DNA of 64,000 nt. Origin: Terriglobia bacterium. GTDB taxonomy: Bacteria > Acidobacteriota > Terriglobia > Terriglobales > Acidobacteriaceae. This document shows positions 14,101-35,616 of this stretch, in pieces (positions within the stretch are counted from its first letter, which is position 1; each line of letters starts with the position of its first letter). Under the pieces are notes generated by a model, which saw only the letters and a program-made list of their open reading frames with translations, did not search any database and was not told where the DNA came from. The stretch lies in the NCBI GenBank assembly GCA_020072645.1, contig JAIQGK010000021.1, forward strand, positions 1-64,000, in the 5' to 3' direction. Made by a program: the position numbers and the translations under genes.

Positions 14101-17100
14101 CGATCTGGAATTCATTGGCCGAACGGATCAACAGGTAAAGATCCGCGGCTTCCGTGTGGAACTGGGAGAAATTGAATCTGCCTTATTGAAGCATGCAAGG
14201 GTCCGTGAAGCTCTGGTAATTGCGCGCGAAGACCAGTCAGGGCAAAAACAGTTGGTCGGTTATGTCATTGCACGTCCACCCAGCGATCGCCAGGAGCAAG
14301 CAGAGACCGAGCAGATAAGCCGCTGGCAGCAGCTCTACGACTCTTATCGCAAGGAAAGCACTGGGAACAATGGCGTCGGAAAATTTGCCGGTTGGAACAG
14401 CAGCTACACCGGCGCCCCGATTCCTGCGCACGAGATGCAGCAATGGGTTGATGAAACGGTGGCGCGCCTGCTGAAATTGCGTCCGCGGCGAGTGCTGGAG
14501 ATCGGCTGCGGAACTGGATTGCTGCTCACGCAAGTTGCGCCGCATTGTGAGAGTTACACCGGACTGGATTTCTCGGCGGCGGCACTCGCACAGCTTAGCC
14601 AGATCGTTGAACAACGCGAAGATCTCACGCACGTCACACTGAGACAGGGGCTTGCCCACGAACTGGATTTTGTAGCCGATCAGAGTGTTGATCTGGTGGT
14701 GATCAATTCAGTTGTGCAATATTTCCCTAGCACGGATTATCTCTTACAAGTATTGAAGCAGGCAGTGCGAGCCACCTCGCCGGGCGGCCATATATTTATT
14801 GGCGATGTGCGCAGCCTTCCACTGCTGCGCGCTTATCACGCGTCGGTTCAGCTCTACAAGGCGTCTCCGGAAATGCCGCTGCAAGAGTTGCGGCAGAGAA
14901 TCAACAAGGCGCAGCAATCGGAAGAAGAACTGGCACTCGATCCTGTGCTTTTTCACGAGATTGGCAATCGCTGGCCAAGCGTAGGCCATGTCACCGCCGG
15001 CCTCAAAGCCGGTGACTATGACAACGAACTGAGCCGCTTCCGTTATGACGTGACGCTGCACATTGGTGACAAAGAGAGTCTCGAAGATCCTGACTGTTGG
15101 CTGACCTGGGACCAGGACGGACGCTGGCAGCGGGATCTCCGCAACATATTGAGCGCGACTCCGAATAGTTCGATCGGTGTGCGAGCAATAAGAGATGGCC
15201 GCGCTGCACCGGCAGTTGCAGCATTGGAAATGCTCGATCAGAACCTCAAGAGCACGGCGGGAGAGATTGTGGAGGCTTCTGCTGCGACAAGCGGCGAAGA
15301 TCCAAATCTGCTGATGCGGCTGGCTTCTGAGACGGGTGTGGAAATGCAACGGCGCGCATTTTCTTCCACCGGAACATACGACGCCATTTTTAATCCACGC
15401 TGGCGAGAGAAGAAGGCAGAGAAAGATTTGCCGCCGACTTACTATCGGAAGTATGGAAACGATCCCGCTCTGGCAGCGGAAGACGCAAAGCTGGCGCCGG
15501 AATTGCAGGACCATTTGCGGCGATCTTTGCCGGACTACATGGTTCCTTCAGCACTGGTCCTGGTTGGCTCATGGCCGCTCATGCCGAGCGGCAAGATTGA
15601 CCGGCGCGCACTGCCTGCTCCGGACCGGCGCAGGGAAAGCTACGTTTCTCCACGCACCCCGCAGGAAGAGATTCTATGTTCGATATTCGCTGACGTGTTG
15701 TCACTGGAGCGCGTGGGCGCTGAGGATGATTTCTTTGCGCTGGGTGGTCATTCGCTGTTGGCAACTCGGCTGGTGAGCCAGGTCCGAACAAGTTTTGGAG
15801 TCGAACTCCCTCTGCGCACGCTGTTTGAAGCGCCAACGGTTCGTTTGCTGGCGGAACATGTCAGCAAGGCCGATAAGGTGCGCGCTCCGCTCGTTCCGCA
15901 GACAAGGCCGGAACGCATTCCTCTCTCCTATGCGCAGCGCCGCCTCTGGTTTATTGACCAGCTTGAGGGGAGCAGTGCGGAATACAATATGCCGCAGGCG
16001 CTCCGGTTGCGCGGCACACTTGATCTTCAGGCGCTGCAGCGCGCCATTGACACGATTGTTGAACGCCATGAAAGCCTGCGCACGCACTTTGCCCAGATTG
16101 AAGGCGAGCCGGCGCAAATTATCGAGCCGCCGCGCGCATTGGAACTTCCGCTTGAAGATCTCAGCGGCTTGCGCGAAGAAGAGCAACGCGATCGCGCTCT
16201 TGAGATCATGCGCCGGGAATGGGAAGAGCCATTCAATCTGGCAACCGGTCCGGTGCTGCGGATGAAGCTCATCAAAGTCAGCGAGCGCGACCACGTCCTG
16301 CTGCGCAATTTTCATCACATCGTGTCTGACGGGTGGTCGCAAAGCGTATTCAACCGTGAGTTCATGCTGCTGTATGAAGCATTTCAGCAAGGCCGCGAGA
16401 ACCCACTGCGTCCGCTGGCAATCCAGTACGCCGATTTTGCCCTTTGGCAGAGAAAGTGGCTGGATGAAGACGCATTGGCCCGCGACGTGGATTATTGGAA
16501 GAAACAACTGCAAGGAATCCCGGAGCAGCTTGAATTGCCAAGGGACCGTCCGCGGCAGGCAATGCAAACCTATAAAGCGGATTATTGCAGTGCCACGCTT
16601 TCCGGCCACCAGGTGAACGCGGTAAAGCAGCTCAGCCAGGCGAACCAGGCCACTCTCTACATGACATTGCTTTCCGCGTTTGCCGTGCTGCTCAGCCGGT
16701 ATAGCGGGCAGGATGACATCGTCGTCGGTTCGCCAATTGCCAATCGGCGTGAAGCGCAATTGGAAGACCTGGTCGGGTTCTTTGTGAATTCGCTGGTCAT
16801 GCGTGTACGGCTGGACCCGCAGCAGAGTTTCAAGGAACTGCTGGCCGACGTGCGTAAAATTGCGCTCGAAGCGTACCAGCATCAGGATGTGCCATTTGAG
16901 CGCCTGGTCGAAGTGCTCTCGCCGGAGCGCAGCCTGAATAAGACGCCCATTTTCCAAGTGGTCTTCGCGCTGCAAAACGCGCCCATGGGCAGCCAGCAAC
17001 TTTCGGGCTTAGAGGTGGAGCGAATTGGCGGCGACGAGCTGCTGGTCCGGTTTGACCTGGAGTTACACGTTTTTGAATTTGAAAATGAAATAGGCTTTTA

Positions 17101-20100
17101 CTGGCTCTTCAACAAGGGACTGTTTGATCATCCGCGCATGGAGCAGATGGCGCAGCATTACGTAAAGCTGCTGGATGAAATTGTGGCGGTACCAGCCGCT
17201 CCTCTCCATGCGCTGGACATGCTTACCAGCGACGAGCGGCAGCTGTTGCTGCGTGATGTGAATGCGACGGCGCAACCACTGGCGGAGACGTCTCTGCTGA
17301 ACACATTTGAACGGCAGGTTTCTAAGAGCCCCGAAGCTGCGGCGGTGGTATGCGGTAAAACCATCCTTTCTTATCGCGAGTTGAACGAACAAGCAAACAA
17401 GTTGGCTCATCATTTAATTGGTGAAGGAATTGGGCCGGAAGACACGGTGGCGATTTTGCCGGAACCCTCGTCGGAGATGATCGTCGCGCTTCTCGGGGTG
17501 TTGAAATCCGGAGCCGCATACCTGCCCCTTGACGCTGAAATGCCTCGCGGCAGGCTTGAGTACATGCTGTCCGACGCTCGCCCTGCTCTAGTGCTCACTC
17601 AGGAATCAATGCGCACGGCAATACCGGAAACAGCGAAGCTGCTGATGGTGGATGCGCCAGATACAATCGCGCACTTGAAAAAATTGCCTCACCACGACCC
17701 TGTGGATGCTGACCGCGTTGCGCCATTGTGTTCAGGGCATCCTGCTTACGTTATCTATACGTCAGGTTCAACTGGAGCGCCCAAAGGCGTAGTCGTGACT
17801 CATGAGGGGCTTAACAATTATCTGCAATGGAGCGCACAAAAATACAATGCATCGCAGGGAAGCGGCGCGCCCGTACACAGCTCAATCGGCTTTGATCTGA
17901 CGGTTACCAGCATCTTTCCTCAGCTATTGACGGGGCGTGCTGTGATCTTTACGCGCGGGCAGCGCGATGTGGAGAATCTGGTTGAAATTGTGCAAGGCAG
18001 CAAAGATCTCACGCTGGTAAAGTTGACGCCCGCTCACATGGAGATGCTCAACAACAGCCTTACGGCTGAACAGATGAAGCAAAGTTCGCGCGCGCTTGTG
18101 ATTGGCGGCGAGGCCCTGAATTACGAAAGCCTCACTCTTTGGCGCATCAATGCTCCGGATACAAGGCTGATCAACGAATACGGACCTACTGAAGCGACAG
18201 TCGGTTGCTGCGTCTATCAGGTAGCAGCAGACGACCCGTTTACTGGGGCTGTGCCGATAGGCGGTCCAATCGCGAATACACAACTCTACGTGCTCGACAC
18301 GTTTCTGCAGCCAGTGCCTCTTGGTGTTACTGGAGAGCTCTACATTGCAGGCACAAATTTGGCGCGAGGATATTTGCGCAGACCGGGGCTGACGGCGGAG
18401 CGCTTTGTCGCAAATCCATTTGGCGAGCCCGGCGACAGGATGTACCGCACTGGCGACCTTGCGCGCAGACGCGTAGACGGTCTGCTGGAGTATGTGGGGC
18501 GCGCTGATCACCAGGTGAAGATTCGCGGCTATCGAATCGAACCAGCGGAAATTGAAGCGGCGCTGAAGCAGCACCAGCGCGTGGCGGACGCGTTGGTTGT
18601 AGTCAGCGGGGAGCACGAAAGCAAGCAGTTGCTGGGATACGTGGTCCCGCGCCTTGCAGATTCCGCAGAATCGCAGTCGGGTCAGGTGGAACATTGGCGC
18701 GAGTTGTATGAATCCACCTACGGTGAAAGCTCTTCTTTTGCCGGCGACTTTAACCTTGCCGGCTGGAATAGCAGCTATACAGGCGAACCCATCCCTGCGG
18801 AGGAAATGCGTTTGTGGGTGGCGGAAACTGTCTCTCGTATTCAGGAATTACAGCCGCGGCGAGTGCTGGAGATTGGCTGTGGCTCCGGCCTGTTGCTTAC
18901 CCGGATTGCCCCGAGCTGCGAGAGCTATACCGGCATTGATTTTTCTGCCTCTGTGATTGAGCAGCTTGGCGGATATGTTCGTCAGCGGCCTGATCTCTCT
19001 AGAGTGGAGTTGCGCCAGGGATTGGCCCACGAACTTGAGTTCCTGCAGGATGGCAGTGTTGACCTCGTCATCCTCAATTCGGTGGTCCAGTATTTTCCCA
19101 GCATCACTTACTTCCTTAAGGTGCTTGAGCAGGCAGTGCGTGTCACGTGCGAGGGTGGGCATATCTTCCTGGGCGATGTCCGCAACCTTGCGCTGCTCGA
19201 AGCATTTGCCGCGTCGGTACAAATGCACAAAGCTCCCGGATCCATGACGTCGGAGCGGCTGCGTCAGTTGGTGCTTCAGTCCACGCAGAAGGAAGAAGAG
19301 CTGCTTCTGGATGCGGCAATCTTTCAGGAACTCGCACAACGGTGGCCGCGAATTGGCCGCGCAACCGTCGCCTTGAAAGCCGGCGATTATGACAACGAAT
19401 TGAGCCGTTACCGCTACGACGTGGCTCTTGGCATCGGCGAAAAATACCTGATAACGCAGCCGAACGGATGGATCGAATGGGACAAGGCTGGTGCGTGGCG
19501 GCAAGAACTACGCGAGCGATTTGCGAGCAGCGGCGAGAGTTTGATCGGAGTTCGTGGAATTCCTGACTCCCGCGTATCAAGTTCGGTTGCAGCGTTTCGA
19601 ATGCTATCGAGTGGCGAGGGCAATTCTAATGCCAGCCAGATTCAGGCGGCTGTGGAAGCGGCGGCAGGCGAGCACCCGAATACTCTAGTGCAGCTGTCCC
19701 ATGAACTAGGAGTCGAGTTGGCATGGCAGGGATTTGGGAGCGACGGCGTGTATGACGCGATCTTCAATCCCAGATGGGATTCGAGCAGAAAATTGGAGGA
19801 AGCAACCCCTGAGTTTTATCTGCGTTTTGCCAACTGGCCCGCGCAGGCGGCCGATGACCTGGAGTTGGCTGCTGAACTCAAAGAGCATCTGCAACAAATT
19901 CTCCCAGGGTACATGGTGCCTGCAAGTATCATCACGATGCCCTCATGGCCATTGAATGCAAATGGCAAAGTAGACCGCAAAGCATTGCCCACACCGGCGC
20001 ATGAGTTGCATGAGAGCTATCGCGAGCCGCGCACGCCTGACGAAAATTTGCTATGCCAGATGTTTGGTGAGGTTCTTGGGGTGCGCAGAGTGGGGATTGA

Positions 20101-21088
20101 GGATAATTTCTTTGCCCTAGGAGGCCATTCACTGCTCGCAACCCGGCTTGTCAGCCAGATACGCGCGGCGTTCGGAGTAGAACTGCGCATTCGCACGCTG
20201 TTTGAAGCCCCCACGGTCGCACAGCTTGCGCCACGGCTCAATGCGCAGAGTTCTCCTGAAAGCGCCTTTGAGCAGCTCTTGCCATTAAGGTCGCAGGGAA
20301 ATCTGCCGCCACTGTTCTGTGCGCATCCCGCAGGCGGACTCAGTTGGAACTATGCCGGACTGATGCGAGAACTTGAAGTGCAGCGACCCATCTATGGTCT
20401 TCAGGCCCCTGGTGTTGCACACGATGTGCCTTATGCAGCCACCATCGAGGAGATGGCTGAAGACTATGTAAATGCGATTCAGCGGATCCAGCCGCAAGGG
20501 CCATATCACCTGCTGGGATGGTCCTTTGGAGGCGTGGTGGCGTATGCCATGGCGTGCCGTTTGCAGCAGATGGGAGAATGCGTAGCACTGCTCGGCATCA
20601 TGGATAGTTATCCATCGACAGAAGAGCGGCAATCATCCCCAATGACGGAAGAGAAGTTGATGAAAGAGATCGTGCCCATGCTGGGTCTGGATTTAGGCGA
20701 CATGGGTGACGGGCCGCTGGACTTTACCGCTGTCTACCTCGCGGCCAAGCGTGCGGGGCAGATTCCAGCCGACTTCGATGAAAGAATCGCGCGGCGAAAC
20801 ATGCAGATGCTTCTGCACAATTCGATTTTGGAGCAGAAATTCAGGGCCGGCCATTACGACGGTGACATCCTGTTCTTTTTTGCGGACGTTAAGGAAGGCG
20901 AGTACCGATTGCCCAGCGCCTGGCAGCCTTACATCAGCGGCAAGCTGGAAACCCATACCGTTCACTGTAAGCACTATGAGATGACGGAGCCAGCGCCGAT
21001 AAAAATGATTGGAAAAATCCTGAACCAGAAGCTCAAGGAAATAACAGCTTCGGCGCAGGCTGCACATAAAGACAAGAAAATAAATTAA
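8189..21088 (+). CDS. Three-module NRPS: C-A-PCP / C-A(nMT)-PCP / C-A(nMT)-PCP-TE
   Basis: 4299 residues. A short helical N-terminus (18-45) precedes C1 (60-480; HHIVTDWW, with Trp where Gly is usual). A1 (528-1020) has code D-I-L-Q-L-G-L-I-W-K, a known glycine-type code; PCP1 is near 1070. C2 (1128-1560; HHIISDGW) is followed by A2 (1588-2475), code D-V-V-S-V-G-A-I-V-K, not assigned, interrupted between motifs A8 and A10 by a methyltransferase (2038-2431; [18 protein letters not shown]); PCP2 is near 2515. C3 (2578-3010; HHIVSDGW) is followed by A3 (3038-3930), code D-L-T-K-V-G-E-V-G-K, an asparagine-type code, interrupted by a second methyltransferase (3498-3891; VLEIGCGSG); PCP3 is near 3975. 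The thioesterase (4031-4290) has GWSFGG. There are no epimerisation domains, and all carrier motifs are LGGHSL, fitting L residues. Predicted segment: Gly, N-Me-X, N-Me-Asn, then release by hydrolysis or cyclisation. The two methyltransferases are very alike and look like a module duplication. Confidence 0.96.
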
Positions 21089-21327: not shown

Positions 21328-22116
21328 ATGAAGAAATCAATGTGGTTTGAAAATCTTCCGGGAGGAAGAGACGGCGCGCTCCGGCTGTACTGCTTTCCCT
21401 ATGCTGGGGGAAGCGCACAGGTATTCCGCAGCTGGCAACGGCATTTTGCGCCAAAAGCAGCGCTCTCGCTTGCGTGTTTGCCAGGCCGGGCGACGCGCAT
21501 CGGGGAGCCGCCGTTCAAGCAATATAAACCGCTGATAACCGCTTTGGCTGACGCCATTATTCCTGAAATCCCTCCCGCATTCGCGTTCTGGGGACACAGC
21601 ATGGGCGCTGTCATCAGCTTTGAACTTGCACGTGAACTTCGCCGTCGAGGTCAACCTGCTCCGCTTGCGTTGTTTCTTTCCGGACGTGGCGCGCCACAGG
21701 TTCCCGATCCCGATCCTCCTGTTTTCAATCTTCCAGATTCGGAATTCATAGCCGAGCTGCGTCGCTTGAACGGCACGCCCCTGGAGTTGCTCGACAGTCC
21801 TGAGCTGAAGGAATTCTTTTTGCCGACCATCAGGGCGGATTTTGAACTTGTGGAAACATATGAGTATGAGCCTGAGCCGCCGCTTACCTGCAATATCTGC
21901 GCTTATGGTGGATTGCAGGATGCTCATGTGCCTGCGGCAAACCTGAGGGAGTGGCAGAAACAAACCTCAGGAGCATTCAAGGTCCGGATGTTTCCCGGTG
22001 ATCATTTTTATATCCACACCTCCAATGACCTTCTGCATGCCCTGCGGCGCGATGTGCTGGATCTTTTGCATGAAGCTCCCACTGGTTACCAACTGCGGGA
22101 GCAATTTAATTCCTGA
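21328..22116 (+). CDS. Type II thioesterase (GrsT-like alpha/beta hydrolase)
   Basis: 262 residues, usual size for external thioesterases of NRPS/PKS clusters. Visible motifs: CFPYAGGSAQVFRSW near the N-terminus, the nucleophile elbow GHSMG, an Asp in the YGGLQDAHV region, and a late GDHFYIH with the catalytic His. The family removes mis-primed acyl groups and stalled intermediates from carrier proteins. AGGAG stands 7 bases before the ATG. It is distinct from the TE domain at the end of the NRPS, which does product release. Confidence 0.93.
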   Translation: MKKSMWFENLPGGRDGALRLYCFPYAGGSAQVFRSWQRHFAPKAALSLACLPGRATRIGEPPFKQYKPLITALADAIIPEIPPAFAFWGHSMGAVISFELARELRRRGQPAPLALFLSGRGAPQVPDPDPPVFNLPDSEFIAELRRLNGTPLELLDSPELKEFFLPTIRADFELVETYEYEPEPPLTCNICAYGGLQDAHVPAANLREWQKQTSGAFKVRMFPGDHFYIHTSNDLLHALRRDVLDLLHEAPTGYQLREQFNS

Positions 22117-22164: not shown

Positions 22165-23439
22165 ATGGAGCCGCTGAAGGCTTGCGCTGGAACAACCCGG
22201 GTCACATTCAGCCAGGTGCTGCGAACGCGGTCCTTTTTTGCGCTTTGGCTGGCCCGTTTTATCAGCAGCATCGGAGACTGGCTTGCCGTGCTGCCCTTGT
22301 TCAGCCTGATCGCTTTTCAACGCCATGGCAGCGCGGCTGAAACGTCCATGGTGATGGTCTCTTTCTCCGTTCCGGTAATCCTTCTGGGCCCGCTGGCAGG
22401 AGCTGTAGTTGATCGCTCAAGTCTAAAGCGGACACTGATTATTTGCGATCTTATCTGCGCGGTGCTTGCGGCGCTGCTGGCATTCTCAGGACATTTGTAC
22501 CAGATGTATCTGCTCATGGCGGGGCTCAGCGCTGCCTCTTGCTTTTTTCTTCCAGGCCAGACCGCATTACTTCCCTTGATCCTCGGTGAGAATGAGCTGC
22601 TGGTTGCCAACTCCATCAACGTGCAGACGCTGCAACTGAACCAGGTATTCGCTCCCGCAGTTGTTGGATTTGCCGTAGCGTGGCTCGGTGTGAGGAATTG
22701 TTTTTACCTGGATGCTGCATCATTCATCGTTTCGGCGCTGTTGGTTTCTACGATTCGCATTGAACGCAAAACGATTCGCGATGTTCCCACCAGCAAGAGC
22801 ATCTGGGTGGACCTGAAGGCTGGTCTCAAATTTATTGCCGGACACCCAGTGGCCCGCGTACTGGTGCTTACAATTGCCATTGCCAACGGCGCGGTGGCGA
22901 TCTTCGAGGCTTTGTTCGCGGTATATGTCAGGGACCTGCTTGGGGGCGGCGCAAAGATGTTTGGAAGCGTGACTTCAGCGCTGGGCGTCGGCACCATCCT
23001 GGGCGCGATGCTTGTAGGCAGGTTCGCCCAAAGACAACCGCGACCGCGCATTATCAATGCCGGGTTTTTGGTTCAGGCAGTTTCTGTGTTCGTCCTCGGG
23101 GTCTGGGCAATGCCGATCACAACCCTGGCCGCCAGCGTGGGATTGGGTGCAGGCGCAGCGCTGGTTTTCCTGAGCGCTCAGACGTTCGCCCTGGAAGAAG
23201 TCCCTCCTGAGATGCTGGGGCGTGTGACGAGCACAGCTACGTCCGTCTTTCTTATTGTGCAGCTTGCTTCATTTGGCAGCAGCGGATTGCTGGCGACATG
23301 GCTGGGAATGCGCAACCTTTGTTATATCGCCGTCATAGTCGTGGTCCTGACCGCAATCGTCGCTCATTTCTGGATTCGAAGAGGACAAGGTGCTCAAGCC
23401 AAAAACGAGGGCATTTTGGAAGAGAGCTTTCGCCCGTAG
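22165..23439 (+). CDS. MFS exporter (EntS/MFS_3-like)
   Basis: 424 residues, with about 12 hydrophobic segments as in a major facilitator. After a short N-terminus come FFALWLARFISSIGDWLAVL and a loop GAVVDRSSLKRTLI, typical of the EntS-like group that exports siderophores and other peptides made by NRPSs. Position directly after the type II thioesterase (48-base gap) makes export of the cluster's product the simplest role (inference). A soluble charged tail (RRGQGAQAKNEGILEES) is cytoplasmic. Confidence 0.88.
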   Translation: MEPLKACAGTTRVTFSQVLRTRSFFALWLARFISSIGDWLAVLPLFSLIAFQRHGSAAETSMVMVSFSVPVILLGPLAGAVVDRSSLKRTLIICDLICAVLAALLAFSGHLYQMYLLMAGLSAASCFFLPGQTALLPLILGENELLVANSINVQTLQLNQVFAPAVVGFAVAWLGVRNCFYLDAASFIVSALLVSTIRIERKTIRDVPTSKSIWVDLKAGLKFIAGHPVARVLVLTIAIANGAVAIFEALFAVYVRDLLGGGAKMFGSVTSALGVGTILGAMLVGRFAQRQPRPRIINAGFLVQAVSVFVLGVWAMPITTLAASVGLGAGAALVFLSAQTFALEEVPPEMLGRVTSTATSVFLIVQLASFGSSGLLATWLGMRNLCYIAVIVVVLTAIVAHFWIRRGQGAQAKNEGILEESFRP

Positions 23440-23478: not shown

Positions 23479-26025
23479 ATGCAAGGAGTTTCCTGGTTGA
23501 ATACCATTCTGCGCGACGTGCTTTACGCGCTTCGGCAGTTCGTCCGAAATCCTCTGTTTACGATTGTCGCGGTGAGTTCTCTAGCCGTTGGAATAGGCGC
23601 GAACACAGCGATCTTCAGTGTGATGGATGCAGCTTTGCTGAAATCGTTGCCGGTGGCCAATCCGCAGGAACTGGTCATGTTTACTGATCCTAATGCGTCA
23701 GGCGTCACTACCGGACTAAATACGGGCGAGCGGCACCTCATGACCTTTGCCGAGTTTGCTCAATTGCGCGATCATGCCACCAGCCTCTCCGGGATGTTCG
23801 CAACAGAGGCGGACCTCAATCGCTGGCACGTGCGCATTGGCGGTGGCCCGATTGAAGAAGCGCGAGGACGCCTGGTTTCTGAAGGATACTTTTCAGTCCT
23901 GGGTCTTCAACCCGCGATAGGAAGGTTCTTTACATCCAGCGACGCAAAAGGTCCCGGGCAGGATCCTTATGCCGTGATTAGCTACGATTACTGGCAAAGC
24001 CGGTTTGGCGGAAAACCGACAGTGTTGGGCACGGCGATTCAGGTTGGGAACGCCAGTCTGACGGTGATCGCTGTTGCTAAGCGTGGGTTTCGCGGTGAAA
24101 CGGTGGGAGAGAGTACCGATTTCTGGATGCCCGTGATGATGCAGCCGATGGTCATTCCCGGGCGAGACTGGCTGAGTGAAAATTTGTCACAGAGTGCTGA
24201 AAAAATCATGTGGCTGCACACGTTCGGACGTCTTAAGCCCGGCGTGAGTTCAAGCAAGGCGCAGACTGAAATAAATGTTCTCTTCCGGCAGGCTATCGAA
24301 AACAGTTATCCCACTTCACTTTCTCCTGAATTGCGGAGACAGGCACTGGACCAGCGGTTGGTGCTGCATGAAGCGCGCACGGGCGTCTTCGCAAACAGGA
24401 ACGATTTTTCACAACAACTGTTCCTGTTGCTGGGAGCCGCAATTGTGGTGCTGGCAATCGCATGCATTAATGTAGCCAACCTGCTGCTGGCTCGAGGCTC
24501 CAACAGAAGCAAAGAAGTGGCGCTCCGGCTTTCCATCGGCGCCACCCGGGCACGCATCATAAGGCAATTCCTGACTGAGAGCCTTGTGCTCTCATTCCTT
24601 GGAGGTCTTTTTGCTCTGCTGCTGGCCTGGGGTGCTTCACGGCTTCTGATCATATTTTTGGCCAGTGGGCCGAATGGCCTGGAACTTACGCCAGCACTGG
24701 ATGGGAAAGTATTGTGGTTCACTCTCTTTGCTGTGGTCTTTTCTGGAATCATTTTTGGATTGGCGCCCGCACTTCGCGGAACAAACATTGACTTGAACGA
24801 TAGCCTGCGCGATAGCGGTCATGCCACCGCTTCAACGGGGAAGGTGAAACTTACGCAGGGCCTTGTGGTAGGGCAGATTGGGCTCTCATTGCTTGCGGTA
24901 ATTCTGGCCGGATTATTTCTGCGTACCATCTGGAATCTGCAATCGGTCGGGTTAGGTTATCCAAAAGAGAAGCTCTTGCTCATAACGGTGGATGGCGTAA
25001 CGGCCGGTTATAAGGGGCCGCAATTATCCAACCTGTGGCGTGACCTGAATGCCAGATTGCAGGCCTTGCCCGGCGTGCAAGCCGTGAGTTATTCCATCAA
25101 TGGACTTTTCAGCGGGTCTGAAGCTGACGATGAAATTGCCGTGGAAGGATTCACTCCACAAAACGAAGACGAAAAAACGTCACGGTTTGACATGGTAGGC
25201 CCCGGTTATTTTTCCACTCTTGGCGTGCCTCTGCTGCGAGGCCGAGAACTCGGAGTGTCTGATGGCCCCGCCGCGCCGCATGTAGCCGTAATTAATGAAG
25301 CATTCGCCAATCGATTTTTTGCCGGGCGTAGCCCGATTGGAAGGCACATTACACAGGACCCAGGTAACGAGAAAAATATCATGGAGGTAGTGGGAGTGGC
25401 GAGGAATGTCCGTGACCACGCTTTGCGTGGAGACGTGCCGCCGCGCTTTTACGTTCCCGGCGATCAGGGAATGGGTGGGCCAAACGAGTGGGCCACGTTT
25501 GAGATCCGTACCGCGGGCGATCCTAAATATATGCTGGATGCGGTGCGCAAGACCATCGTAAATGCTGATGCGAAACTGTATCCGACCAAGGAGCGCCCCC
25601 TAGTGGAGTCGCTGGAGAGCACCATGTCTCAACCGCGAATGATGGCAAGGCTTTGCGCCGTTTTTGGTATGGTGGGATTATTGCTGGCCGCCGGAGGTCT
25701 CTATGGAGTCCTTTCCTACGGCATAGCCAGGCGAACGAATGAGATTGGCATCCGTATGGCGCTGGGCGCAGCGCCGGGAAGGGTAATCGGCATGGTATTG
25801 CGAGAGACTGGAATGATGCTCGCTATCGGATCGGTGTTCGGGATCGTGCTGACATTTGCCTGCGCTCGACTGATTGCCGGCCGGCTTTACGGTCTCAGCA
25901 CACTCGATCCGCTTACAATCCTGAGCGCCGTTGGACTTTTTGCGATTGTGGCCGCGATTGCCGCTTTCGTTCCCGCTGCCCGCGCTGCCCGCGTGAATCC
26001 AATCAGAGCTTTGCGGCACGAATAG
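23479..26025 (+). CDS. ADOP-type ABC permease (duplicated FtsX/MacB-like)
   Basis: 848 residues. The N-terminus (RDVLYALRQFVRNPLFTIVA, then IGIGANTAIFSVMDAALLKSLP) is the signature of acidobacterial duplicated orphan permeases. There is a MacB-type periplasmic domain, an FtsX domain near 315-440, a second periplasmic domain, and a second FtsX domain at the C-terminus (RRTNEIGIRMALGA, RAARVNPIRALRHE). No ATPase gene is adjacent, as is common for this family, so the partner is unknown. It lies 39 bases after the MFS gene in the same direction, with TGAGGAAAG before the ATG. It may be the last gene of the biosynthetic operon and help export or self-protection, but this family is very abundant in these genomes and the link is only positional. 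Confidence 0.92.
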   Translation: MQGVSWLNTILRDVLYALRQFVRNPLFTIVAVSSLAVGIGANTAIFSVMDAALLKSLPVANPQELVMFTDPNASGVTTGLNTGERHLMTFAEFAQLRDHATSLSGMFATEADLNRWHVRIGGGPIEEARGRLVSEGYFSVLGLQPAIGRFFTSSDAKGPGQDPYAVISYDYWQSRFGGKPTVLGTAIQVGNASLTVIAVAKRGFRGETVGESTDFWMPVMMQPMVIPGRDWLSENLSQSAEKIMWLHTFGRLKPGVSSSKAQTEINVLFRQAIENSYPTSLSPELRRQALDQRLVLHEARTGVFANRNDFSQQLFLLLGAAIVVLAIACINVANLLLARGSNRSKEVALRLSIGATRARIIRQFLTESLVLSFLGGLFALLLAWGASRLLIIFLASGPNGLELTPALDGKVLWFTLFAVVFSGIIFGLAPALRGTNIDLNDSLRDSGHATASTGKVKLTQGLVVGQIGLSLLAVILAGLFLRTIWNLQSVGLGYPKEKLLLITVDGVTAGYKGPQLSNLWRDLNARLQALPGVQAVSYSINGLFSGSEADDEIAVEGFTPQNEDEKTSRFDMVGPGYFSTLGVPLLRGRELGVSDGPAAPHVAVINEAFANRFFAGRSPIGRHITQDPGNEKNIMEVVGVARNVRDHALRGDVPPRFYVPGDQGMGGPNEWATFEIRTAGDPKYMLDAVRKTIVNADAKLYPTKERPLVESLESTMSQPRMMARLCAVFGMVGLLLAAGGLYGVLSYGIARRTNEIGIRMALGAAPGRVIGMVLRETGMMLAIGSVFGIVLTFACARLIAGRLYGLSTLDPLTILSAVGLFAIVAAIAAFVPAARAARVNPIRALRHE

Positions 26026-26030
26026 AGTAT

Positions 26031-28364
26031 TTACAAAACATATTTGCGACAAACATAGGTTGCATCGCTGCCATCCATTCCAATGATGCTGGATGGACGC
26101 GGCTGCGTATTTACTGGCAGGCCATAGGACCGGTCCATTACCCAGAATGAAAGAGCGGAAGGACCTTGGACCGTGAGTTCAAGTTCCACGCCTTCATCTC
26201 CCATTGCGTACAAGGTCAGGCCAAAGCGGCTGCCTTTATGCACCGCAACATCTCTCCCCGCCACTTTTGCCGCGACGGGTTGAACATCGTCAGGAAATCT
26301 CACGTACAGCATTTCGGCTTTTCGCTGCGATCTAAGTCTTAGCTTCAGCCGGTGGAGGCCGTCCTCCTGCTTGTGCTCGACATTTTCGATAAGAGGCGGC
26401 AGCAGGGGAATCGCGGGCGTGCCGGCCGAGATCAGCGGTCGCGTTAATCCAGCCAGATAGTCCGGCAAAGGATGCGGCGCAGGCTTGTTGGCGCCGAAGA
26501 ACTGATGCGTCCAATCGTCAGGCTTCCGATCGTAGCTGATCCAGACTGCGCTATTGTCGTCTGCATTGAGACTGTAAACAATGCTGTCTGGTCGAGGATG
26601 TTCCGAACTGTATCCCGAAAGAGCAACGCCACAGCCGAGACAAACCACCGCGGCGACCGCAAGAAATCCCGACGCCCATCCCCTGGATGCGACAGATGAT
26701 GACCCAAGTGTGGGAAGCGATATCAGGAGGAACAAGGCGAGCAGCAGGGCCGACGCTACCGCGGAGATCATCTGCAAAGTCAGGAATATGTACACCAGAT
26801 AAATGACCGGCGCAAACAGGAGAATGGCTGCCACGAGGGCAGGGAGATTGCGTATCCAGTGTGTTGTGGATGGATGTGTTGTGGATTTTTTGCCAAAGTT
26901 GGAAGCAGCATTGCCCAGCAGTCCGAGCAGCAAAGGCCAGAACAAAAGGTAACTTCCGGAGGAGATCTTAAGCGCGAGGAGCCAGCTCAAAACGAACCAC
27001 AGCGACAAAGCTGCTAGAGAGAGTTCCTGGCCGCCGAGACGTCTGCGGAAAAAGCCAACCAGGAGCATTCCCACGCACGCGCCGAAAAGCATGAGTGCGC
27101 TTAGAAGAAAAAGATTTGAAGGACAATCGCCAATGATCCGGCGACCGGCAAGAACGAAGGAAATGAGCCACCACGCGGCGGCAACGGCGGCAGCCAGCAG
27201 AATAAGAATCGCGAGGCAAGCAAGCAGGGCAAGAAAAAATTGCCGCCTGCTAAATTGAGGGCGGCGGAATGCAAGAATGAGCGTCACTGCGAACAAGAGT
27301 GTGACGAATATCTGTCCGCGAAGCACCCAACGCTGGCAGTATGTGACCAGCCTGCTGCCAAACCAATCGAAGAATACGTCGTCGTCTCGGGAATTCCGCA
27401 GCGCTGCTAAATCGACCTGCCCGAAATAACGAGTCAGCGCCAATCCATAGGAGCCGTGGTGTTGGAGAGAAGCAAGGCTGAGATGATCGGAAGTATCAAG
27501 GGGAGAGTGGTAGGCCTCAAGACCTTCACCAAAAGCGAAATTCAGCCCGGGAATTGCGGCCGGACGAAAAACAGTGAAATCAGTGTCATTGGGAAGGATT
27601 TTGTACAGTTCATAAAACAAGGATGAACCGACGGGGTACGGCGCGACATGGGCAACGGCCTCAATGAGCGGCCGGTTATTCCTACTGGTTTCAAAAAGAA
27701 GCGAGGGCCCACGATTACCACGCGCCTCAAAGTTCAGGATGAGACCAGCATCTTTCATCCAGGGGTGCGAATGGGCAAAGGCTTCAGCCCCCAGGAGTCC
27801 AGCCTCTTCTCCATCTGTGAATAGCGCGATGACGTCGCGCTGGATGGGCGGGCCCTGCTTGAGTGCCCGAAGAATTTCAAGAATAGAAGCTACGCCAGAT
27901 GCATCATCTCCGGCGCCCGGAGCGCGGTAAACTGAATCATAGTGCGCCATTAAGATAATTGCCGGGCCAGATGCTGTGCCGGGAAGGCGTCCCACAATGT
28001 CATTTGTTTTTCCAGCTATGATCAGGCGTGCGGTGGGATCCACGCCAATGGATGGAAAAATCTGTGGTTGCAAACCAAGATTGGTAAGCTGCGTCACCAA
28101 ATAATTGCGCGCCGCGGCATCCGCTGGTGAGCCGAGAGGATGGGGTACGGCAGCAATTTCTCGCACGTGGACGAGCGCCCGCTCTGCAGAAAATTCATTT
28201 TCAGGAGCGGTTGCGGGTAACGGCTGAGGCGCATGCAATGCTCTTATAGAGAGGATGGCCAGCGCGATGATCGAAATCCAAAGTATAAAGACCTTTACAA
28301 ACGAAGGAGGGACAGAACCTTGCTGCCCCCTGGAGGCGATGCCATCCTGCTTCAAGTCAGCCAT
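26031..28364 (-). CDS. Membrane-anchored M28 zinc aminopeptidase with multi-TM C-terminal domain (Pff1-like)
   Basis: 777 residues from the ATG at 28364. A longer frame to 28730 exists, but its extra residues look non-coding and lie opposite the LanB-like gene. One N-terminal membrane segment (22-44) is followed by an M28 metallopeptidase domain with the expected zinc ligands: His141 and Asp143 in AHYDS, Asp in GAGDDASG, the catalytic Glu pair in TDGEEAGLLG (186-187), Glu in NFEARG and His in EAYHSPLDTSDH. About seven more membrane segments follow, then a periplasmic C-terminal domain. This layout matches vacuolar-type Pff1 peptidases and their bacterial relatives. It is convergent with the ADOP gene (5-base gap) and divergent from the LanB-like gene (104 bases). 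The substrate is unknown; a role in peptide maturation or scavenging is possible. Confidence 0.85.
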   Translation of the reverse strand: MADLKQDGIASRGQQGSVPPSFVKVFILWISIIALAILSIRALHAPQPLPATAPENEFSAERALVHVREIAAVPHPLGSPADAAARNYLVTQLTNLGLQPQIFPSIGVDPTARLIIAGKTNDIVGRLPGTASGPAIILMAHYDSVYRAPGAGDDASGVASILEILRALKQGPPIQRDVIALFTDGEEAGLLGAEAFAHSHPWMKDAGLILNFEARGNRGPSLLFETSRNNRPLIEAVAHVAPYPVGSSLFYELYKILPNDTDFTVFRPAAIPGLNFAFGEGLEAYHSPLDTSDHLSLASLQHHGSYGLALTRYFGQVDLAALRNSRDDDVFFDWFGSRLVTYCQRWVLRGQIFVTLLFAVTLILAFRRPQFSRRQFFLALLACLAILILLAAAVAAAWWLISFVLAGRRIIGDCPSNLFLLSALMLFGACVGMLLVGFFRRRLGGQELSLAALSLWFVLSWLLALKISSGSYLLFWPLLLGLLGNAASNFGKKSTTHPSTTHWIRNLPALVAAILLFAPVIYLVYIFLTLQMISAVASALLLALFLLISLPTLGSSSVASRGWASGFLAVAAVVCLGCGVALSGYSSEHPRPDSIVYSLNADDNSAVWISYDRKPDDWTHQFFGANKPAPHPLPDYLAGLTRPLISAGTPAIPLLPPLIENVEHKQEDGLHRLKLRLRSQRKAEMLYVRFPDDVQPVAAKVAGRDVAVHKGSRFGLTLYAMGDEGVELELTVQGPSALSFWVMDRSYGLPVNTQPRPSSIIGMDGSDATYVCRKYVL

Positions 28365-28390
28365 GCGGAACAGTATATAAAGGGAATAGT

Positions 28391-28421
28391 TTGAAATTGC
28401 AGGGTAATTGTTTAATAAGAT
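28391..28421 (+). promoter_or_regulatory. Possible sigma70-type promoter for the LanB-like gene
   Basis: TTGAAA at 28391-28396 and TAAGAT at 28416-28421 are separated by 19 bases in the AT-rich 104-base gap between the divergent peptidase and LanB-like genes. A start near 28428 would fit translation from the ATG at 28469. On the other strand TATACT (28377-28372) is a -10-like hexamer only 7 bases before the peptidase ATG. Read by eye only. Confidence 0.35.
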
Positions 28422-28468
28422 ATGGCGAAAATCATTTTGGGAAATCGCTGCGATCCGGGGATTTACTG

Positions 28469-31075
28469 ATGCCCGGTCCGAGCCATGCTTTGCCGCCGCA
28501 CTTAGAGATACTGGTTCCCTTTGAATGGGGGATCTGGCGCTGGTTTGTGTTGCGCGGAGCCGGTTTTCCGGCAGAACGGATTGAGGGACTTGCGCCGGCC
28601 TGCGCTGCTGCAGCAGACGCGCTGATACTGGCAGAGGAGCGTGTCCAATCGCTATTTCAAAATGCCATCCGCACCTTAAATAAAACAATGGACGAGCTGC
28701 GCCGGCAAGGCGAAGATCGTTATAGCGCAATGTTTAAGACTGTGCTCAACGCGCGGCGTCGGCTCGCGGAAGGCAAGATACCGCGCACCGAAGACTTTTT
28801 TCCAGAGATCCAGCGGATGTTCCATGAAATCTCTGATGCGATGCAGGCGTGTGAGCGTCTCAATGCCGAATGGGTCCAGAGCTTCGAGCAGTCTCTATCC
28901 GCCCAAACAGAAACATTGCGGCAATTTGCGTGCGACCCGAAGTTCCAGGAAGCAGTTGTCTGGCAAAATCGGCAGGCATTTGAAACCGCCCTGCAATCTG
29001 TTGCGCGTGAGCACGGAGGAGTGCTGAGAAATCAGCGGCAACGCAATCATGAGGAACTTGTAGCCAACTATGCCCAGCGATATTGCGTGAAAAATGACAC
29101 CATCGGGTTCTTTGGACCGGTGGCCTGGGGCAGGATTGAGTCTGGCTCGCGCGTGATCGAACTCAGTTATGGGCCTTCGCTGACCAAACGACGCCAGACC
29201 TATTTTGAAAATTGGGCAATCGATAAAGTTGCAGCCGGCATTTCGCAGCTGAAGGGCATGGATTGGTGGATTTCCCCTCGCCTTATTCCCGACGCTTTCA
29301 TCGAGAAGGGAATGTTGCAGCGTCCTGGTTTCTCGCCTGTCGCGCTTTCTGAACTGGAGCAGGCAATACTATCCCGATGCAATGGCAAAGTATTACCGCA
29401 AGAAATATTGCATGCAATCCACGCCGATCCGCGACTTTGCGATTGCAGTCAGCAGGACCTGCGTGCGGTGCTAAAAGCCAAAGCCGACGAGGGTGTCCTC
29501 GTCTGGCGGTTTCTGGTTCCGGTTGAAGTCAATTCAGAAATCGCTCTGCGCGAGCAACTGCTCAGGGTTGGTGACCCTGAGCTTCGCACAACAGCGCTCA
29601 ACCATCTGGACAAGATTGAAGCGGCGCGCAGGGAAGTAGAGGGCACTGCCGGCGATCCAAACCGACTGAATCGGGCAATGCGCAACGTTGAGTTTGTTTT
29701 TGAAGAGATCACAAATGTTCAGGGAAATCGAAATCCAGGAACCACCTATGGCGGACGAACAGTTGTCTATGAAGATTGCCAGAGAGATTTAGGAATCCGA
29801 ATCGCGCCCGATCTACTCAGCCCAATTGCTCCGGCCCTCTCGCTTCTTCTGAAAAGTTTGCGCTGGTTCATGCAATCAACAGCGCTGGAATTTCAGCGAT
29901 TGTTTGTGCAGACATATCGTGAGCTTGCTGTGGCCCAATCCAGCAGCGGCGTTCGATTGCAGGATTGGTGGAACTATACGGAGCCAAAACTTCTCAACGC
30001 TTCATCGTTGGACGAAGTAGAGAAACTCTTTCGCCAGAAGTGGGACGAAATTTTGGCGATCGGGCAACAAGATTCGATGGTCCAACTTAAAAGCGATGAT
30101 CTGAAGGAAAAGGTGGAACAGCTGTTCCCCGAACTCGGCGCCGGATATTATCCTGTGCGCTATTTTTGTCCTGACCTTATGCTGGCAGCGGAGGATGAGG
30201 AGGCTGCTAGCAGAGGCGAGTTGCTATATGTATTAGGTGAAGTGCATGCGGGAAAAAATACTCTGTGCCATGCCGCGCTGGTCAAGCAACATCCCAACCG
30301 CCACGAACTGGTTGAAGCGACGCAATGGGACCTGGCTTCCAGCTGTTTCAAAATTCTCAACACGCATGCGAACCCATTCACAACGGTCAGAACCAGTGAA
30401 GGCGTGTTGCGCCCGGCAGATTACTTCCTGGCCACCACGCCGGATGCCATTGCTCCCAGCGGACACGATTCCCACCCTATCAGCGGACTCGTGCTGACTG
30501 AGCACGATGAAACGATTGAAGTGGTCAGCGTTGCTGATGGACGGCGTTTTCACATTCTTGAAGCGTTTTCCGATCTTCTTTTTGCGTTTGTAATGAATAA
30601 GGCGTCGTGGATTCCGCCATTGCGGCATGCTCCCCGCGTATTGATCGATAAGCTGGTGATTCATCGCGAAACGTGGCGCTTTCGCAACGGCGACCTGGAT
30701 TTCGCAGCGGAAAAAGATGAAGGCAAACGTTTTCTGGAGGCCAGAAGATGGATGAAAAGCCACAGCCTGCCGCGGAAATTATTTGTGAAAAGCGCTTTGG
30801 AGGTAAAACCGTTCTATGTGGACATGGAAAGCCCCGTGCTGGTGGAAATTCTGTGCCGCGCGATCCGCCGCATGAATTCTTCGAGCGGAGAAGGTGAAGA
30901 GATCATCTTTTCAGAGATGCTTCCCGGTTCCCAACAATTATGGCTGCGGGACGCGAAGGGCAGCAGCTACACGAGCGAACTGCGCTTTGCCGTGGTAGAT
31001 CTTAAGGCACGGTCGTTGTCCGCGATCGGGCAAAAGCATGCCGGGTTCGATCCGCCATTGTTTTCGGGTTGCTAG
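28469..31075 (+). CDS. Small LanB-like protein: lantibiotic dehydratase glutamylation domain, no elimination domain
   Basis: 868 residues from the ATG at 28469, which has GGGG 8 bases before it; an upstream TTG at 28391 falls in a likely -35 box. The N-terminus (PFEWGIWRWFVLRGAGFP) and the central YAQRYCVKNDTIGFFGPVAWG are typical of the Lant_dehydr_N family, whose members transfer glutamate or another amino acid from aminoacyl-tRNA to a peptide. The C-terminal part (LPRKLFVKS, KPFYVDMESPVLVEIL) still belongs to that domain. The roughly 300-residue elimination domain of full-length LanB is absent, as in split dehydratases and PEARL-type peptide-aminoacyl-tRNA ligases. No cyclase, partner elimination protein or convincing precursor gene is nearby. 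Its place beside an NRPS cluster and a membrane peptidase is unusual; function is open. Confidence 0.8.
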   Translation: MPGPSHALPPHLEILVPFEWGIWRWFVLRGAGFPAERIEGLAPACAAAADALILAEERVQSLFQNAIRTLNKTMDELRRQGEDRYSAMFKTVLNARRRLAEGKIPRTEDFFPEIQRMFHEISDAMQACERLNAEWVQSFEQSLSAQTETLRQFACDPKFQEAVVWQNRQAFETALQSVAREHGGVLRNQRQRNHEELVANYAQRYCVKNDTIGFFGPVAWGRIESGSRVIELSYGPSLTKRRQTYFENWAIDKVAAGISQLKGMDWWISPRLIPDAFIEKGMLQRPGFSPVALSELEQAILSRCNGKVLPQEILHAIHADPRLCDCSQQDLRAVLKAKADEGVLVWRFLVPVEVNSEIALREQLLRVGDPELRTTALNHLDKIEAARREVEGTAGDPNRLNRAMRNVEFVFEEITNVQGNRNPGTTYGGRTVVYEDCQRDLGIRIAPDLLSPIAPALSLLLKSLRWFMQSTALEFQRLFVQTYRELAVAQSSSGVRLQDWWNYTEPKLLNASSLDEVEKLFRQKWDEILAIGQQDSMVQLKSDDLKEKVEQLFPELGAGYYPVRYFCPDLMLAAEDEEAASRGELLYVLGEVHAGKNTLCHAALVKQHPNRHELVEATQWDLASSCFKILNTHANPFTTVRTSEGVLRPADYFLATTPDAIAPSGHDSHPISGLVLTEHDETIEVVSVADGRRFHILEAFSDLLFAFVMNKASWIPPLRHAPRVLIDKLVIHRETWRFRNGDLDFAAEKDEGKRFLEARRWMKSHSLPRKLFVKSALEVKPFYVDMESPVLVEILCRAIRRMNSSSGEGEEIIFSEMLPGSQQLWLRDAKGSSYTSELRFAVVDLKARSLSAIGQKHAGFDPPLFSGC

Positions 31076-33924: not shown

Positions 33925-35616
33925 ATGGAATGGCTTGGACATCTCTTTGAGAAGTATCCGGAAATGGCTGTCTATCTTGCGATTGGCCTGGGATATTTGA
34001 TTGGTGGCCTGAAGTTCCGTGGCGCCGGAATAGGCGCCGTAACAGGATCGCTGCTAGGTGGAATTCTCATTGGCAATTTCTTCCACGTACCTGTTTCCGA
34101 TACGGCCAAGTCCATCCTTTTTCTTCTGTTCCTATTTGGCATCGGCTATTCCGTGGGGCCAAGTTTTTTCCGCAGCATGAAAGGAGACGGATGGCGATGG
34201 GGCGTGCTGGGCGTGTTCATGCCATTCGTCGGCCTCATGACGGCTTACGTTGTAGCGCGCGTCTTGAAACTCGATCTCGGCTTCGCCGCCGGCGTGCTCT
34301 CAGGCTCATTGACGGAATCTCCTGCGATCGGCACTGCCAGTGAAGCCATTCGTGGGCTCGCCATGGGTGATGCGCAGAAACAGCTGCTCATTAGTCATAT
34401 CGCTGTTGCGGACGCGGTCTGTTACATCTTTGGCACCGCCGGGCTGATCTGGTTTTGCAGCAGCCTGGGACCGAAGCTGCTTAGAGTCAACCTGCGCGAA
34501 GAAGCAAAGAAGGTTGAAACGAGCCTTGGCATGAAACGTACCAAACTCGGGGTCGTCCCGGCATGGCAGCCGATTGCGATGCGCGCATACCTGATTGCCG
34601 CGGGAGGCAAGATTGTGGGAAAAACCGTTGCAGAGGCTGAACGTGGAGTAGCGGGTTCACGCATCTTTGCCGAGCGCATCCGGCGCGGCGGTGAAGTCTT
34701 TGCCACGGCCCCGGCCACCGTGTTCCAGGCAGGAGATCGGGTAGCTCTGCTGGGCAAGACCGACGTGTTGGTGAACGTGGTAGGAACGGCCGCGCAAGAA
34801 ATTGCCGATCCGGAGCTGTTGGATATTCCAGTGGCTTCATTCGACATTTATGTGACAGGGAAGCGCCTGGTGGGAAAGACGCTCCAGGAGATCGTCGCGA
34901 CGATTGATGAGACACGTGCGGTTATGCTTCGCGGAATTACTCGTAACTCAGAGCCTATTCCAGTTGGTTTGAACACAACGGTGGAGCGCGGTGACACATT
35001 GCAGGTGACCGGAACAGAGCCGGCGGTAGAAGCTTTTGCAAAGATCGCCGGCCGCACGATCAACCCGGTACAGGAAAGCGACCTTGGGACGCTGGGGCTT
35101 GCCATTGCCGCCGGCGTTTTTGTGGGAGCCATCATCACTATTCCCATAGGGCATTTGAGAATTAACCTCGGCACAAGCGTGGGAACGTTGCTCGCCGGCT
35201 TGCTGGTGGGTTGGGGCAGATCTGTGGTTCCATGGTTCGGGCGCATTCCGGAAGGAGCCGTCCTCTTTATGCGTTCTATCGGGCTTGCGGCGTTCGTGGC
35301 GATGATCGGGCTCAAAGCAGGTCCCGTTTTTCTCGCTTCGCTAAAAGATGTTGGATATGTGCTGCTTCTGGGCGGCGCAGTTGTCACCCTCATGCCGTTG
35401 CTTCTGGGACTCTTGTTTGGCCGCTATGTGCTCAAGCTCAATCCCCTTCTTTTGCTTGGAGGGTTGGCTGGCGCCCAGACCATGACAGCGGGCCTTGCCG
35501 CCGTGCAGGAGAAATCGGAAAGCCCAGTAGCGGTCCTGGGTTATTCCGGGACAGTGGCGTTCGGCCACATTCTGCTTACGACGTGCGGAACGCTCATCAT
35601 CGCCCTGTTGAGTTGA
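33925..35616 (+). CDS. AspT/YidE-family transporter (aspartate:alanine exchanger-like), first copy
   Basis: 563 residues. Two blocks of membrane segments (about 10-190 and 385-560) flank a soluble middle with two TrkA-C (RCK_C) domains, seen as VGKTVAEAERGVAGSRIFAERIRR and GKTLQEIVATIDETRAVMLRGITR. This is the AspT/YidE duplication architecture. Family members include the electrogenic aspartate-alanine exchanger, but many have unknown substrates. GGAGG lies 7 bases before the ATG. It is followed by a DUF2254 gene 9 bases later. A second copy at 48934 sits next to aspartate decarboxylase and is the better candidate for the true exchanger. Confidence 0.88.
   Translation: MEWLGHLFEKYPEMAVYLAIGLGYLIGGLKFRGAGIGAVTGSLLGGILIGNFFHVPVSDTAKSILFLLFLFGIGYSVGPSFFRSMKGDGWRWGVLGVFMPFVGLMTAYVVARVLKLDLGFAAGVLSGSLTESPAIGTASEAIRGLAMGDAQKQLLISHIAVADAVCYIFGTAGLIWFCSSLGPKLLRVNLREEAKKVETSLGMKRTKLGVVPAWQPIAMRAYLIAAGGKIVGKTVAEAERGVAGSRIFAERIRRGGEVFATAPATVFQAGDRVALLGKTDVLVNVVGTAAQEIADPELLDIPVASFDIYVTGKRLVGKTLQEIVATIDETRAVMLRGITRNSEPIPVGLNTTVERGDTLQVTGTEPAVEAFAKIAGRTINPVQESDLGTLGLAIAAGVFVGAIITIPIGHLRINLGTSVGTLLAGLLVGWGRSVVPWFGRIPEGAVLFMRSIGLAAFVAMIGLKAGPVFLASLKDVGYVLLLGGAVVTLMPLLLGLLFGRYVLKLNPLLLLGGLAGAQTMTAGLAAVQEKSESPVAVLGYSGTVAFGHILLTTCGTLIIALLS

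Follow-up and report, generated by a model that had tools for sequence, protein, structure and literature searches.

The stretch of DNA analysed here (the window, 64,000 nucleotides) is the left end, positions 1-64000, of an 86-kb contig of a soil Terriglobia bacterium (contig C21 of genome G000; such labels are our own). It carries a nonribosomal peptide synthetase-polyketide synthase (NRPS-PKS) cluster whose first NRPS gene is cut at that end and, downstream of it, a gene for an 868-residue LanB-like protein that, judged from its sequence, is probably (at a chance of about 0.75) a peptide aminoacyl-tRNA ligase (PEARL)-type amide ligase of the cluster, adding a tRNA-borne amino acid to its product. 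The observations behind this reading are the fold, the missing elimination domain, ligase-specific residues, an NRPS context across genomes and fusions to NRPSs in relatives. The initial annotation, made from the letters of the window, had proposed a PEARL-type build and a role in tailoring the NRPS product, and the agreeing residues, fold, tree and gene context support both. Such tailoring is not new as an idea: a 2024 study described PEARL-like enzymes associated with NRPSs (PMC11212132).

A LanB-like protein without an elimination domain

The gene and a domain retained within its product are as follows.

28469..31075, + strand: putative PEARL-like (LanB-like) aminoacyl-tRNA-dependent ligase, 868 amino acids (aa); PF04738 is the sole Pfam match
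29246..29512, + strand: winged-helix domain resembling PqqD and the recognition element (RRE) of ribosomally synthesized and post-translationally modified peptide (RiPP) enzymes, residues 260-348 of the ligase; TbiB1 (Z 9.3), TruD (Z 8.7) and PqqD (Z 8.2) match on about that range

The best start of the LanB-like open reading frame (ORF) is the ATG at 28469, and the frame ends at 31075. Its product matches PF04738, the glutamylation fold of class I dehydratases and split LanBs, with 85.5 bits against a cut-off of 28, with no second Pfam family at E<=0.1 and an empty NCBIfam scan. Of the two families that the initial annotation had named for a hidden Markov model (HMM) search, the other, the elimination domain PF14028, has no match over its cut-off on C21, and the protein is without the fused or nearby elimination domain that a dehydratase would have. 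An AlphaFold2 model built from a 45-row alignment (mean predicted local distance difference test score, pLDDT, 90.0; predicted template modelling score, pTM, 0.88) retrieved TbtB at Z 21.8 over 715 residues, MibB at 20.3, MadB at 20.0, NisB at 19.1 and GodF at 17.6. The matches to MibB, MadB and NisB end well short of the chain end, and this unmatched end holds their elimination domain. ATP-grasp folds were not prominent in these searches, in which a missing row is no evidence. The earlier claim of a glutamylation-type domain without an elimination domain is borne out by the single Pfam family and by the fold shared with TbtB, MibB and NisB; that the protein is a real PF04738-fold protein lacking an elimination domain, the combination expected of a PEARL, is confirmed.

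A partner acting in trans was not found either: among 8163 ORFs of at least 60 aa from 89 partly overlapping stretches (the 77 loci of relatives described below and 12 others), none was an elimination protein at E<=1, with an HMM that recovers four of four left-out members. In G000, PF14028 exceeds its cut-off on contig C1 only, in two places (a 13-bit match on C12 falls below it), and near these lies the one other PF04738 protein of the genome. The description of the ligase as solitary thus holds for the window and fails for the genome. This second protein (L017:10354-13068), a split LanB, has PF04738 in common with the window ligase but is 18% identical to it, lacks the residues D569, E-x-H and R839 discussed below, and has the two PF14028 places on its contig. 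The region around it, at about 318900-331900 of C1, reads as a split-LanB RiPP-like cluster made up of the PF04738 protein, the two PF14028 places and an ABC transporter (by eye). No cyclase match appeared in Pfam among the eight window proteins scanned, cyclase models not having been searched for by name. For the window protein, a LanB dehydratase identity was rejected on the missing elimination domain together with the ATP-site residues.

Residues that separate ligases from dehydratases

PEARLs and split LanBs are reported to differ in TglB Asp542 and Arg803 versus Tyr and Leu in TbtB (PMC11117183), and to have TbtB Arg743, Phe783 and Glu851 in common (PMC11117183; PMC12945691); PMC12945691 prints Glu, not Asp, at TglB 542. 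The corresponding codons of the window gene are listed here.

28553..28555, + strand: R29, likely counterpart of TglB Arg10/BhaB7 Arg34 (roles drawn from PMC12945691 and PMC11962472), common to dehydratase-type proteins; R in 107 of 108 alignment rows, 1 gap
30173..30175, + strand: D569, counterpart of TglB Asp542 (ATP/Mg site); 108 of 108 rows, 0 of 10 other-type PF04738 proteins
30239..30247, + strand: E591-V592-H593 (E-x-H), counterpart of TglB Glu564 and a conserved His; E and H in 108 of 108 rows, 0 of 10 other-type proteins
30977..30985, + strand: E837-L838-R839 (E-x-R), counterpart of TglB Glu801/Arg803; E in 105 of 108 rows (2 gaps, 1 Arg), R in 106 of 108 (2 gaps)

The 108 rows are 99 ORFs of the 77 loci, the window protein and eight copies from genome searches, with five genes entered twice. 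R204 and R733 are also present in all 108 and F772 in 107, and the rows that miss R839 are truncated ends. The ten comparison proteins, termed other-type from their residues and tree place, are the split LanB of G000 and nine further Acidobacteriota PF04738 proteins from seven genomes, and an elimination-like partner is seen for four of them (that on C1, L159, L157 and, weakly, L153). Since the split LanB of G000 is poorly aligned near its C-terminus among the 108 rows, a second alignment was used for it; here D569, E-x-H and R839 occur in none of the ten, whose C-terminal motif is E-x-L in nine and E-x-V in one. R29, R733 and E837 are common to both types, and R839 is restricted to the ligase type.

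Spacing agrees with this assignment. D569 precedes E591 by 22 residues and H593 by 24, and E837 precedes R839 by 2; by published numbering, TglB has 22 residues from D542 to E564 and 2 from E801 to R803. Likewise by published numbering, R733-F772-K780 (39, 47) lies within one residue of BhaB7 R715-F755-K763 (40, 48), and an alignment with the TbtB chain places R733 and F772 on TbtB Arg743 and Phe783, given an inferred three-residue numbering offset. By alignment among the relatives and by spacing against published numbering, the ATP and carboxylate residues of PEARLs (TglB D542, E564, the His, E801, R803 and R10) all have counterparts, and the Tyr and Leu that would signal the lack of an ATP site at TglB D542 and R803 are replaced by D569 and R839. 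As far as its sequence tells, the protein carries the residues reported to separate ATP-using PEARLs from lanthipeptide dehydratases. The signature D, E-x-H and E-x-R versus E-x-L might serve as a simple test for relabelling proteins annotated as lantibiotic dehydratases.

Could the protein nonetheless be a split glutamylation enzyme that uses Glu-tRNA to glutamylate Ser or Thr of the NRPS peptide, leaving it as an O-glutamyl ester or, if an eliminase has gone unseen, turning it into a dehydroamino acid? Its PF04738 membership would suit this, as would the whole fold, which it has in common with TbtB, GodF and the N-terminal part of NisB, MibB and MadB (Z 17.6-21.8), and the residues common to that type, R29, R733, F772 and E837, among which R733 and F772 stand for the TbtB adenosine contacts R743 and F783. 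The window ligase differs from all of these enzymes in having D569, E-x-H and R839 and in being without an elimination partner. With D569 and R839 standing where the TbtB type has Tyr and Leu, absent from ten of ten other-type proteins, and with no PF14028 over cut-off on C21 and none near the relatives, we consider glutamylation quite improbable.

The Acidobacteriota loci L151-L158 encode E-x-L PF04738 proteins that, by these tests, look neither like PEARLs nor like plain LanBs; at six of the eight, the stretch contains nothing elimination-like beside them at E<=1e-3.

Relatives and their gene context

A search over GTDB species confirmed 352 relatives, the best 80 of which yielded 77 distinct loci, a set that leans to close relatives. 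It includes G001, G003 and G171 (as L049, L056 and L048), near-identical Pseudomonas and several loci per genome; its rows are not independent. Six phyla are represented among the relatives: Acidobacteriota, Cyanobacteriota, Chloroflexota, Actinomycetota, Pseudomonadota and Gemmatimonadota. Closer to home, copies occur in five of 100 related genomes, G000 included, all within the genus. A phylum sample of 297 genomes, with up to three candidates per genome scored, gave a full-length match in three (G000 included) and a match to the C-terminal stretch only in seven more, which are the source of the nine other-type proteins. A plasmid search returned 16 records, 14 of them Streptomyces. In a quick tree of 68 rows, a single branch with a Shimodaira-Hasegawa-like approximate likelihood ratio (SH-aLRT) of 98 parts 58 NRPS-type proteins from the ten others; the tree placement that had been suggested as a check thus sets the window protein apart from the other type. 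The fine placement of the split LanB of G000 and of L159, both among the ten, is unsure on their long branches.

An adenylation (A) or condensation (C) domain lies within the stretch at 70 of the 77 loci (69 without a 30-bit A match at L046), and a C domain at 59. These counts refer to flanks of up to 10 kb on each side and to phmmer searches (E<=1e-5) with a single A and a single C domain taken from the NRPS of the window; the A query may also match other AMP-binding enzymes, and several loci are A-positive and C-negative. As controls, 4.3% of the NRPS-rich G000 lies within 10 kb of a C domain, and one of nine other-type loci, with shorter flanks, has an A or C domain. Some relatives are physically joined to the assembly line. 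C, A, thiolation (T) and ligase parts form a single ORF at six Saccharothrix loci and in Salinispora pacifica (L076), a count that leaves out long ORFs without an NRPS motif ahead of the ligase (such as L054, L065 and L070); L104, cut by its contig, shows A-T-ligase only. In Micromonospora wenchangensis a 2457-aa ORF (L113:4760-12133) reads A-T-Curea-A-T-ligase, Curea being a ureido-forming C domain. This natural fusion of parts like SnaA and SnaE ties the ligase group to the SnaE system described below, and the Curea-linked L113 and L058 fall within the NRPS-type group of the tree.

If the ligase served a ribosomal peptide, a precursor might be expected nearby. When 544 small ORFs near the ligase at 85 loci were grouped with phmmer (E<=1e-3), none of the 12 largest recurring groups looked like a precursor or a scaffold, although a peptide confined to a single genome could escape; the groups common to unrelated genomes are, by eye, MbtH-like proteins (8 loci, with overlapping frames) and free T domains (4 loci). 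These results disfavour the separate RiPP-like pathway that the initial annotation had offered as an alternative, and a RiPP side pathway was rejected on the same ground. It might also be supposed that the enzyme serves as a PEARL in a small scaffold-peptide pathway of RiPP type whose place beside the NRPS is incidental, the neighbouring M28 peptidase releasing the product: known PEARLs act on scaffold peptides from which the added residue is later cut off (PMC11212132), the RRE-like domain is retained, and the M28 gene is adjacent. Given the small-ORF groups, the NRPS context at 70 of 77 loci with the NRPS fusions, and an M28 gene that is not conserved with the ligase, we regard this as very improbable.

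Two further arrangements deserve mention. G171 has two tandem ligase genes (L031:14092-19336 and L032:1728-5934) behind genes for NRPS, major facilitator superfamily (MFS) and ADOP proteins; next come SbnA/SbnB-like genes (by eye) that might supply diaminopropionate. In G006 (L015:713-12028) and G004 (L016:4718-17430), a divergent PEARL-like protein, 22-23% identical to that of the window, with the ligase residues and a shortened RRE region, lies among ketosynthase (KS), ketoacyl synthase III (KAS III), short-chain dehydrogenase/reductase (SDR), diiron-like and one-module NRPS genes (by eye), which suggests a fatty-acid/NRPS hybrid pathway.

The NRPS-PKS cluster and the source of the carboxylate

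The cluster upstream of the ligase consists of the following genes.

36..6959, + strand: NRPS-PKS gene, 3' part (end of C, A, T, KS, acyltransferase (AT), ketoreductase (KR), T; Pfam), the 5' part lying on contig C32
6962..8185, + strand: luciferase-like monooxygenase (PF00296)
8189..21088, + strand: NRPS, 4299 aa; three each of C, A and T domains, two stretches of methyltransferase type and, at the end, a thioesterase (TE) domain (Pfam; C motifs read)
21328..22116, + strand: type II thioesterase (TEII; PF00975)
22165..23439, + strand: MFS exporter (PF07690)
23479..26025, + strand: ADOP-family (MacB/FtsX-like) permease, putative exporter (TIGR03434, 843.4 bits, cut-off 622.3)

C21 opens with 51 bases identical to the end of C32 in backward reading; across the join the gene stays in frame and has a complete C domain. 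C32 contributes a further NRPS, 4230 aa long, whose domains number five C, three A and four T. This join is independently backed, because G006 shows both flanks on one contig and in the same order: counterparts of the C32 left-flank genes (thymidylate-kinase-like and another, named by eye; 86-89% nucleotide identity) and of the window's TEII and M28 genes, with about 8 kb of other genes between. Opening with a C domain and closing with a TE domain, the joined line has nine C domains in all, of which none carries the ureido motif EHHxxHDG. A Curea partner inside the same cluster had been considered, since the window opens inside a C domain; the contig-end overlap led to C32, which is without one. 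Candidatus Angelobacter, which falls within the genus, has been noted for its many large NRPS/PKS clusters (PMC9723581).

Among the closest known systems is SnaE, of the threopeptin NRPS-PKS cluster of Stackebrandtia nassauensis, which attaches Thr to the product of an NRPS once the chain has been reversed by a ureido-forming C domain (PMC11212132). Like SnaE, the window ligase has a lantibiotic-dehydratase type of annotation, with no precursor peptide seen among the largest small-ORF groups, and is encoded in an NRPS-PKS cluster with thioesterase and transporters. In the SnaE system the partner NRPS has two modules (A-T-C-A-T) and its C domain is of the Curea type, whereas the window cluster, with its nine C domains, C start and TE end, is without the Curea-motif partner, a feature seen with SnaE and not stated to define the class. 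With no Curea signature in these nine domains, the acceptor carboxylate would therefore differ from that of SnaE.

An SnaE-like course throughout, in which the ligase acts in trans on the carboxylate left by the one Curea NRPS of G000, is in our view unlikely. The single EHHxxHDG site of the genome (searched as a DNA pattern) lies on C28, within a gene of the build A-T-Curea-A-T, after which a C domain runs towards the contig end, and M. wenchangensis fuses just such a set of domains to its ligase. C28, however, is joined to C41 through a 139-bp overlap, which places it in a different stretch, whereas the window contig joins C32, whose left-flank genes stand in order with TEII and M28 in G006; and among the related loci the motif occurs within the stretch at two of 77, L058 and L113, and the joined cluster has it in 0 of its nine C domains. 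At the level of whole genomes the pattern has at least one match in 28 of 50 ligase-bearing genomes, these matches being unfiltered for NRPS reading frames and their nearness to the ligase unassigned.

The C28 region itself (C28:1-8518 joined to C41; L160, L165), with A-T-Curea-A-T and then C beside a flavin-dependent halogenase-like gene (by eye), is likely a ureido peptide cluster; both PF04738 proteins of G000 are on other contigs. In G106, a ligase stands between a stand-alone C domain and an ATP-grasp-like gene (L033:11609-16900, by eye), and a Curea-type NRPS is found on contig C119.

Proposed reaction and comparison with known ligases

As we infer the reaction, as regards its use of ATP and tRNA, its acceptor site and the order of its steps, the ligase would use ATP to phosphorylate a free carboxylate on the peptide of the cluster, the amino group of a particular aminoacyl-tRNA would attack the acyl phosphate, and the tRNA would then be hydrolysed, so that one amino acid would be joined on through an amide bond without use of the thioester assembly line. 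Our guess for the acceptor is, as the simplest case, the C-terminus after release; a carboxylate on a side chain or an acyl cap could also serve. With TglB, BhaB and AmmB (PMC11117183, PMC11962472, PMC12945691) the window ligase has in common the ATP-site and carboxylate-site residues, matching spacing and an RRE-like domain; those enzymes differ in extending ribosomal scaffold peptides, of which none was seen among the largest groups of small ORFs examined.

Several points weigh against a PEARL-type ligase of this cluster. Its function is predicted from sequence, and the residue match to PEARLs depends on published numbering and the TbtB alignment, not on a direct alignment with tested PEARLs such as SnaE, TglB or BhaB. 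The position of K780, equivalent to the BhaB7 ATP contact Lys763, holds Lys in 67 of the 108 rows, the window among them, and Arg in another 40, and the BhaB7 residues mapped leave out Tyr426. The window protein, within the NRPS-type group, occupies its own long branch (1.08) and is at most about 36-37% identical to any row. Seven of the 77 loci (L053, L061, L068, L071, L083, L085 and L108) have no A or C domain in the stretch, L068 and L085 with full flanks. The RRE-like domain is typical of RiPP enzymes, and PEARLs are reported to retain an RRE whose binding role is unproven (PMC11962472). Finally, SnaE, the sole NRPS-associated PEARL of known function in the literature consulted, works with Curea, and none is visible in the window cluster.

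Among the matches listed in a literature search (titles and abstract starts, with subscription papers mostly outside its scope), there was no study of an NRPS-associated PEARL without Curea or of the Acidobacteriota group. Our verdict is that the window ligase is of a known kind, the NRPS-associated PEARL, and new in that the usual source of the free carboxylate is missing. More tentatively, and with rather less than even odds, many NRPS lines in at least six phyla may finish with such an aminoacyl-tRNA ligase, or carry it as a cap, without any need for chain reversal. A PEARL-like enzyme, in some cases fused to the C-terminal end of a C-A-T module, would add one amino acid from charged tRNA once the chain has left the last carrier domain or as it does so, and the RRE-like domain may have been adapted to recognise the carrier-bound or released peptide. 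Should the reading as a PEARL-type ligase be right, the products of many NRPS clusters would bear one amino acid that is invisible to adenylation-domain prediction, coming as it does from tRNA, and PEARL-like ligases would serve NRPS lines without the ureido-forming domain that explained the sole studied case.

The neighbouring M28 peptidase

Divergent from the ligase gene lies that of the peptidase.

26031..28364, - strand: membrane M28 metallopeptidase, 777 aa (PF04389, 159.5 bits); a neighbour, probably not a dedicated partner
28365..28468, no strand: divergent intergenic region between the M28 and ligase starts, 104 bp

The initial annotation had seen in these two genes a build-then-trim pair acting on a peptide, and had proposed a check whether LanB, M28 and NRPS genes stay together in other genomes. 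The ligase does mostly stay with NRPS genes; a homologue of the window M28 lies within the stretch at four of the 77 loci, and the pair is not conserved. The genus has several M28 copies, two of them (L193, L195) in stretches where no NRPS is seen. G006 is instructive, as one draft genome of 360 contigs with a divergent PEARL-like gene elsewhere (C288). At the syntenic place it retains TEII (80.7% nucleotide identity) and M28 (87.1%), whereas the NRPS, MFS, ADOP and ligase genes are missing; tblastn over C88:1-38900 (contig of 53,021 bases) gave no trace of the missing genes, with one chance-level NRPS match. The first bases of MFS there run into the last bases of ADOP, and the MFS/ADOP block was evidently deleted, because remains of both gene ends persist. 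About 130 unrelated bases occupy the place of the ligase, versus 2.8 kb in the window, with no LanB remnants beyond chance (score 24, shuffles up to 26), so that deletion and insertion of the ligase block are indistinguishable. The ligase shares the fate of the NRPS and exporters in G006 and M28 does not; the build-then-trim pair was rejected on these grounds, with M28 at four of 77 loci, extra copies in the genus and M28 kept without the ligase.

Elsewhere in the window, two Asp-Al_Ex-type exchangers (33925-35616, by Pfam; 48934-50691, by eye) and proteins resembling aspartate decarboxylase (50719-52353) and Arg/Lys decarboxylase (55016-57826; both by eye) possibly form an amino-acid decarboxylation/antiport acid-resistance set.

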